Of a stretch of 34,974 nt of DNA, positions 29,848 through 30,238 are shown in pieces. Location: positions 75,018-109,991 of the forward strand of contig JAFTFG010000005.1 of assembly GCA_017449675.1 (NCBI GenBank), read 5' to 3'. Source of the stretch: Prevotella sp. (GTDB lineage: Bacteria; Bacteroidota; Bacteroidia; Bacteroidales; Bacteroidaceae). The translations under genes were made by a program, and so were the position numbers. The notes under the pieces were generated by a model. It was not told where the DNA came from. It made no database searches and saw only the letters and a list, made by a program, of their open reading frames with translations. Positions within the stretch are counted from its first letter, which is position 1; every line of letters starts with the position of its first letter.

Positions 29848-30238
29848 TAACTCACGCCGTGCTGACTTCGTAAGATGTCGGAGCGGCTACAGGGAGGGAG
29901 CACTACATTATGGAATGCGTCGCTGACGCTTTGTTTTTGGCGATTCGAAACTACCACACTCGAAAAGCAAGTCAGGAACATAGCAGAGGTAGGTGCTACG
30001 GGTAGGTATATACTGTTCCCGTTGGTGTGCCGATGGCTAACCATGCCATCATGCACACCTTTGGGGGCATATTATATATACCAACGGCGTGGGTATCACT
30101 CTGTTCGTTTACTTGCTTGGCTGTGGTAGGCCTCGAATCGCGAACGAGCAGAAGCCAGATACCCCGCTTTTCTTTTGTAGTCATGATAAAATTAAACTAT
30201 CCCATTTCTGAGTATCTGATGGGCATTTTGGGGGAGAT
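29848..30238 (+). ncRNA. Long structured 5' leader RNA, unassigned family
   Basis: No convincing gene fills this 390-nt stretch. Nested perfect complements are: GCGATTCGA/TCGAATCGC (29940-29948 with 30133-30141), CTACCACA/TGTGGTAG (29951-29958 with 30122-30129), AAGCAAGT/ACTTGCTT (29965-29972 with 30111-30118), GAACA/TGTTC (29976-29980 with 30102-30106), GGTATATA/TATATACC (30005-30012 with 30075-30082), GGTGTGC/GCACACC (30024-30030 with 30053-30059) and GATGGC/GCCATC (30032-30037 with 30045-30050). TGTTCCC (30014-30020) can pair with GGGGGCA (30063-30069) using two G-U pairs. GCG-T-GGGTATC (30087-30097) can pair with GATACCC-CGC (30158-30167) as a pseudoknot. It may be a cis-regulatory leader or an independent RNA. 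I cannot match it to a known family from memory. Confidence 0.7.
29917..29938 (+). terminator. Terminator-like hairpin early in the leader
   Basis: GCGTC-GCT-GACGC (29917-29929) is a 5-bp stem with a triloop, followed by TTTGTTTTT. It lies about 70-90 nt into the predicted transcript and could attenuate transcription of the downstream gene. The stem is short, so it would be weak. Confidence 0.4.

Follow-up and report, generated by a model that had tools for sequence, protein, structure and literature searches.

What occupies the interval between a crp-like gene and a CotH lipoprotein gene in this Prevotella genome, and what does it do to the gene behind it? An initial annotation of the window (the whole stretch of 34,974 nucleotides analyzed here) had proposed a large structured RNA with its own promoter, lying before the lipoprotein gene and apparently unassigned, and our results support this proposal. 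The promoter and a structured leader of about 390 nt were delimited at window positions 29834-30223, and the start codon of the lipoprotein gene lies 15 nt further on. In the terminator scan, a terminator-like hairpin downstream of the upstream crp-like gene ended at 29777, and the leader therefore seems to be a separate transcription unit.

29834..29841, + strand: promoter -7 box TAACTTTG, of the TAnnTTTG type
30239..32263, + strand: controlled gene, a lipoprotein with CotH kinase and DUF4988 domains (Pfam)

The product of the lipoprotein gene matched PF08757 (E 1.6e-34) and PF16378 (E 1.7e-20). The TAnnTTTG box, a -7 promoter motif of the Bacteroidetes, stands where a promoter had been annotated. 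In 53/63 copies it was located at most 25 nt from where it was expected, as opposed to 4/63 and 1/63 in two upstream control windows; this count is an unfiltered check, an earlier listing of 66 copies having kept only those with the box. The fold of 29848-30180 in the window copy reached -141 kcal/mol, compared with -101.9 +/- 4.9 kcal/mol for 100 dinucleotide shuffles (z -8.0, with 0/100 shuffles as low), which bears out the earlier claim of order beyond chance. The window contains small ORFs that overlap. Among the copies, the six-frame ORFs listed differ in frame and strand, and no reading frame common to them was noticed (by eye).

No tRNA or tmRNA was detected in the window. The initial annotation had named a hit to an Rfam family as grounds for dropping its proposal; at the gathering threshold none of 4227 Rfam models matched the window, and the matches in nine homologous loci were four tRNAs, one abiF and one SAM-I-IV, none of them at the RNA. 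At E-values up to 10, only sub-threshold matches were obtained for 29700-30300, the best by E-value being STnc460 on the opposite strand (23.5 bits, against a cut-off of 70). We found no description of this leader in our searches of the open-licence PMC literature, including two surveys of structured RNAs (PMC8040213 and PMC2864571). The leader apparently represents an uncatalogued new family, one that probably works like an attenuator.

The neighborhood of the leader varies among relatives. The crp-like gene served to look for an empty site; in the 19 examined relatives that carry it, another sequence follows this gene (the left side was compared; the window's contig ends at 34974). In the closest of them (L228), the place of the window's RNA is taken by what looks like a tRNA, preceded by a TAnnTTTG-like box (by eye). 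Elsewhere in the window, a tyrosine recombinase is present as two ORFs (32627-33184 and 33218-33850), the second of which alone matched recombinase models, and close to it lies an abortive infection-like Abi_2 protein (33996-34970, minus strand; PF07751, E 1.6e-48).

Comparison of the copies resolved the leader into a series of elements. From 5' to 3', the TAnnTTTG box is followed by a variable 5' hairpin, the 5' strand of P1, and the P2/T1 hairpin with its U-tract. Stacked helices then form a rod that ends in a hairpin tip, and arm A precedes the rod's 3' strands. After these come arm B, a second U-tract, the 3' strand of P1, hairpin C, and finally the start codon. The window coordinates of these elements are as follows.

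29856..29887, + strand: variable 5' hairpin P0, strands GCCGTGCTGAC/GTCGGAGCGGC; its sequence differs widely among copies
29902..29907, + strand: 5' strand of P1 (ACTACA); its partner TGTAGT at 30176-30181 closes the RNA
29917..29938, + strand: hairpin P2 with U-tract (T1, terminator-like), from the terminator scan; a strongly conserved block
29940..30141, + strand: the rod (P3a, P3b, P4, P5, A':A, P7, P8, P9), from covariation
29940-29948/30133-30141, + strand: helix P3a
29951-29958/30122-30129, + strand: helix P3b
29965-29972/30111-30118, + strand: helix P4
29984-29988/30099-30103, + strand: helix P5
29992..29997, + strand: A', rod partner of 30092-30097
30005-30012/30075-30082, + strand: helix P7
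30024-30030/30053-30059, + strand: helix P8
30032-30037/30045-30050, + strand: helix P9
30087..30097, + strand: arm A (GCGTGGGTATC), partner of A' or of B
30101..30109, + strand: inner helix within the terminator-like hairpin, paired with 30143-30151
30158..30167, + strand: arm B (GATACCCCGC), partner of A or of the loop of hairpin C
30168..30176, + strand: U-tract immediately 3' of arm B, from the comparison of copies
30201..30223, + strand: hairpin C with loop 30210-30216 (GAGTATC), from covariation

These helices were evaluated in an alignment of 62 rows, from which four rows (L012, L044, L066, and L092) had been removed beforehand; the 61-row alignment used for the rod also leaves out the short L024. 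The seven nested helices that had been read from the window sequence at 29940-30141 were indeed present there. P1, P2, and the rod together make up 68 pairs, across which 87.5% of cells in the 61 homologues were standard pairs, compared with 34.0-48.5% in slid controls, and double changes were observed in 509 cells against 169.8 in shuffles, affecting 45/68 pairs. Individually, P1 was paired in 90.4% of cells (double changes at 3/6 pairs), P2 in 97.0% (1/5 pairs), and A':A in 91.2% (2/6 pairs). A motif near GTCAAGAACAAAGCA is kept in several distant copies (by eye), which is compatible with small-ligand binding.

Arms A and B form a further helix that crosses the rod. Together with the inner helix it was paired in 96.8% of cells (62 copies) as opposed to 38-57% in slid versions, with 91 double-change cells against 25.6 in shuffles and double changes at 11/19 pairs; the inner helix taken separately reached 97.5% and showed double changes at 5/9 pairs. 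The first 8 nt after arm B contain 6 or 7 U in 62/62 aligned copies, and the A:B hairpin therefore resembles a long intrinsic terminator. As A:B shares bases with A':A and with P5, it cannot coexist with them. On average the two main folds have similar predicted stabilities: forced folding of the 62 copies gave a mean gap of 1.6 kcal/mol, with the terminator fold lower in 24/62; in the window's own copy the rod was better by 11.5 kcal/mol. Thus the comparison of sequences supports two mutually exclusive predicted folds, a long rod versus a terminator-like hairpin.

The loop of hairpin C offers arm B a second partner. C loop:B was paired in 95.2% of cells with double changes at 5/7 pairs, and the stem of hairpin C was paired in 81.3% with double changes at 5/5 pairs. 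In a separate count of 145 sites, given in full below, B was on average more complementary to its own downstream region than to those of other copies. Distant copies appear to alter B and C jointly (L127, L134, L144, L261, L262, L263, and L266, by eye): B is CAGATTCCC and C is GGGAATCTG in L127, TTGCCC and GGGCAA in L134, and GATTTCC and GGAAATC in L263. In the window copy the C loop matches the complement of B at 6/7 positions, with one mismatch. A recognisable hairpin C is absent from L003, and the C loops of L132 and L146 are poor (by eye).

These results both confirm and amend the first reading of the locus. Compensatory changes, which were to be sought in BLASTN homologues, proved abundant in the rod, in A:B, and in B:C. 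The crossing pair 30087-30097/30158-30167 exists and covaries; however, since A also pairs with A' and B also pairs with C, and all three pairings covary, it need not be a static pseudoknot and is better viewed as one arm of a conformational switch. Likewise, the RNA is present from 29848 onward as annotated, but the leader continues past 30181 to hairpin C.

We lean, if only slightly, towards the view that the leader belongs to a new family of RNA switches that lie close to their promoter and act in cis. It would most likely be a transcription attenuator in which A:B terminates transcription while the rod and B:C permit read-through. The pairings are supported comparatively, and from them we infer termination and the direction of control. 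Specifically, the nascent leader would first fold as the rod, in which A' holds A through a pairing backed by covariation. As B emerges, it may pair with A, and the resulting long hairpin followed immediately by the U-tract would form an intrinsic terminator. If B is left free, the polymerase would read on until hairpin C emerges and its loop captures B, a pairing that could lock the read-through form. A':A with B:C would therefore be the ON state, and A:B the OFF state, of the following gene, in this case that of the CotH lipoprotein. Hairpin C is transcribed after the U-tract and so cannot itself decide termination. Candidate triggers that might tip the balance include a ligand, an RNA-binding or elongation factor, and a changed transcription speed. 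As restriction-modification and other defence genes, together with envelope genes, stand out among the targets described below, our guess is a phage- or surface-related signal.

Two observations fit an attenuator: the leader lies in cis between a promoter and a gene (the box in 53/63 copies, a same-strand ORF in 101/113), and the comparative evidence points to two exclusive folds, one of them a hairpin with a U-tract. Counting against a switch are the 11.5 kcal/mol by which the rod is favoured in the window copy, the mismatch in its C loop, and the three copies L003, L132, and L146. The switch model makes sharp predictions, namely a premature 3' end, rescue by compensatory mutations, and one trigger for many unlinked loci.

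The leader is widespread among relatives of the window's genome. BLASTN searches with 29840-30240 as query detected one copy in the genome itself (a 54% complete assembly) and matches in 24/100 relatives and in 148/398 genomes of the genus, own genome included. Several of the latter held more than one copy and some up to 4, which are lower bounds, as two candidates were scored per genome. A covariance model (R1) spanning arm A to hairpin C was matched in 164/301 genomes and 22/30 genera of the family (E <= 0.001), with up to 8 matches per genome, weak ones included, and in 12/295 genomes of the order (E <= 1e-5), both counts including the own genome, which was the sole match in a phylum-wide sample of 296 genomes. 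These model searches scored 10 candidates per genome with rough E-values, such that low-scoring matches may be false and absences are uncertain. Eleven loci (L257-L267, with L258 being the L018 copy) come from other families of the order; most of them keep T1, both arms A and B, the U-tract, and a loop resembling that of C, with L267 the least clear (by eye). A T1 pattern search of named genomes retrieved at least 80 stretches, largely from rumen Prevotella and Bacteroidaceae assemblies, including Prevotella communis E15-14 and Prevotella sp. ne3005. The window copy had no match in plasmid or phage collections, and viral contigs had no match to one exact T1 pattern. At L057 (G157:C1), the full copy is preceded on the same strand, at a distance of 4.8 kb, by a second, partial one (query 6-122).

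Next to be considered are the genes behind the leader. A pattern-based survey, which required T1, an A-like core, and TA..TTTG, located 113 distinct copies. Of these, 12 were dropped, and the other 101 are followed by an ORF on the same strand that starts within 600 nt. Between the two options left by the initial annotation, a cis-regulator and a stand-alone RNA, this favours the former and disfavours the latter. The first gene starts 320-339 nt after the T1 hairpin in 40/101 and 540-579 nt after it in 16/101. Pfam families among the 101 first genes, in which one protein may count several times and L001 was entered as the full window protein, were led by C5 DNA methylase (31), N6_Mtase (10), acyltransferase_3 (9), and Eco57I (7), followed by MBOAT and GDSL lipase (4 each), N6_N4_Mtase and RE_TdeIII (3 each), D12 methyltransferase, CotH, and GT4-type glycosyltransferases (2 each), and RE_HaeIII and SNF2 (1 each). 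In total 72 families were matched, of which 25 were listed, with methyltransferases and envelope genes prominent. No one pathway unites these targets, a pattern that would be unusual in a metabolite riboswitch. PADLOC matches among ten chosen proteins included a type III methyltransferase, a DISARM DrmD-like helicase, and TerY, while 2/10 had no match.

One T1 pattern contributed 80/226 loci, and the survey is consequently tilted towards the methyltransferase subfamily. Still, C5 methylases made up 12/53 first genes in the set independent of that pattern (a scan of 53/65 first genes), and 34 C5-methylase matches in 20 genomes gave a background of 1.7 per genome, some matches being pieces of one gene. 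With biased sampling allowed for, the association with C5 methylases is far above chance. By eye, a B of AAGCACCC goes mostly with a following restriction-modification gene, and the window's type of copy mostly with an envelope gene. Units of RNA and gene that belong to one gene family were also found in different genomic places with a common sequence that begins near the promoter box and ends near the stop codon (L068, L070, and L218; L057, L058, L089, and L090; L079 and L190). These transcription units look as though they had moved as cassettes.

A further element of about 200 nt was identified between hairpin C and the start codon in 18 copies by alignment.

L006:930-1133, L133:2842-3044, L096:3312-3515, and 15 more: second element

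Its mean column identity is 80%, and double changes were observed at 9/53 predicted pairs in the 18 copies. At the 3' end of the element, a GC-rich hairpin GCCC...GGGC followed by UUUUU abuts a start codon. An ORF begins at this codon in 17/18 copies, and all 17 encode C5 methyltransferases; in L028 this place holds no ORF of 60 codons. The upstream sequence TTTGACAT is present in 14/18 copies and ATGTCAAA at the start in 10/18, with both in 8/18; they are paired in one consensus fold and unpaired in the other. By eye, the second element resembles a short version of the first leader RNA.

The range of targets raises the possibility, which we advance tentatively, of a Bacteroidales regulon in which the same bistable leader stands before restriction-modification, other defence, and envelope genes, and the RNA reads one cellular or infection signal. 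If so, one signal would set anti-phage and surface genes ON or OFF together in many genera, and the C5 methyltransferase loci would add another switch, similar in appearance, beside the start codon.

Other modes of action were weighed against an attenuator. Hairpin C lies 15 nt upstream of the start codon in the window, and translational control is therefore possible: B:C would block or permit ribosome access, A:B would free C, and the U-tract would be incidental. The position of C shortly upstream of the start codon in many other copies and the covariation of B:C both agree with this reading. However, where the second element is present, it sets the start codon about 200 nt further away (16/101 first genes start 540-579 nt after T1) and B and C still pair, and a purely translational device would have no need of the U-tract that follows B in 62/62 copies. 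We consider a translational switch unlikely.

Somewhat more doubtful is a processive antitermination leader of the UpxY/LoaP kind, in which the RNA would recruit a NusG paralogue and the polymerase would pass this and later terminators. UpxY is a NusG paralogue of Bacteroidales. Envelope and polysaccharide genes are often targets, and UpxY genes do occur behind the RNA, as in L015:1927-2430 (UpxY-like, below the curated cut-off) and in G469, where the RNA is at C12:74386-74534 and UpxY at C12:74735-75250. NusG-family matches in the genus numbered 2-6 in 8 RNA-bearing genomes versus 1-5 in 13 without the RNA, 12 of which have 1 or 2. On the other hand, UpxY exceeded the cut-off in 21/22 RNA-bearing and 13/16 RNA-less genomes, with no clear link, and the RNA-bearing G545 has no UpxY over the cut-off; all 38 genomes are at least 90% complete, and absence of the RNA was taken from the model search scoring 10 candidates per genome. 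Moreover, the second ORF lies on the same strand in 65/80 copies and on the opposite strand in 15/80, and long operons thus do not appear to be the rule. Our first reading, of T1 and A:B as successive terminators of a processive system, was lowered given the single-gene targets.

A trans-acting small RNA, whose transcription would normally end after B and whose 3' end B would pair with the C loops of other mRNAs, appears improbable. Such an RNA would have its own promoter, a terminator-like end, several copies per genome, and B:C complementarity, all of which are seen here. Nevertheless, B fits its own C better on average: the longest complementary run between an 8-nt segment of B and the downstream region had a mean of 7.06 within the same site, compared with 6.04 for swapped partners (maximum 6.28 in 200 permutations) and 4.67 after shuffling of the downstream region, for 145 sites found by a simple B pattern, a few of them loci counted twice and some of them false. 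Since in addition a same-strand gene is close behind in 101/113 copies, action in cis is the simpler explanation. Finally, that the structure acts in DNA, for example as a recombination or cassette site with the promoter-RNA-gene unit as the mobile part, is very improbable, for although related units are alike over a span that runs roughly from promoter to stop codon (in L068/L070, identity is 87% between about -105 and +1067, counted from T1), G-U pairs, which are mismatches in DNA, are common among the kept pairs, ordinary operon transfer with fast-changing flanks yields equal borders, and in some pairs of units the shared stretch is longer (starting at -151 in L175/L205, reaching into the second gene in L085/L086).

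The attenuator reading can be set against the systems already known. No RNA switch of such size is known to us that is associated with restriction-modification and surface genes throughout an order of gut bacteria, and the only restraints on restriction-modification and surface operons known to us in Bacteroidales are promoter inversion and UpxY. It is as a large switch linked to both classes of genes throughout such an order that the leader would matter. The abiF RNA (RF03085) likewise adjoins a phage-defence gene, but it differs in being a separate RNA with a 37-nt model and another place in L023. There it was detected at L023:115-151 (minus strand), near a copy of the leader, and two different defence-related RNAs thus share this locus. 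Among structured RNAs described from Bacteroidales in PMC2864571 are Bacteroidales-1 (RF01693), Bacteroides-1 (RF01694), and Bacteroid-trp (RF01692). These come from the same bacteria as the leader and gave no match at gathering score in the window or the nine loci. LoaP leaders, according to PMC12691694, carry hairpins and an intrinsic terminator before accessory operons, with LoaP binding a small UNCG-type hairpin and the terminator being separate. Our leader is like LoaP/UpxY leaders in having hairpins and an intrinsic terminator-like structure in that position; unlike them, the 390-nt RNA appears to contain its own switch, some of its targets are single genes, and UpxY occurs both with and without it.

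The closest likeness in design is to a different class. Transcription attenuators and riboswitches are promoter-proximal leaders with two exclusive folds that share one arm and with a U-tract after one of the hairpins. The leader described here has the same three features. It differs from them in that it has no known ligand, its targets share no single pathway, and it is about 390 nt long, with a predicted four-part strand exchange, A'-A-B-C, in which B would be recaptured by a downstream loop.
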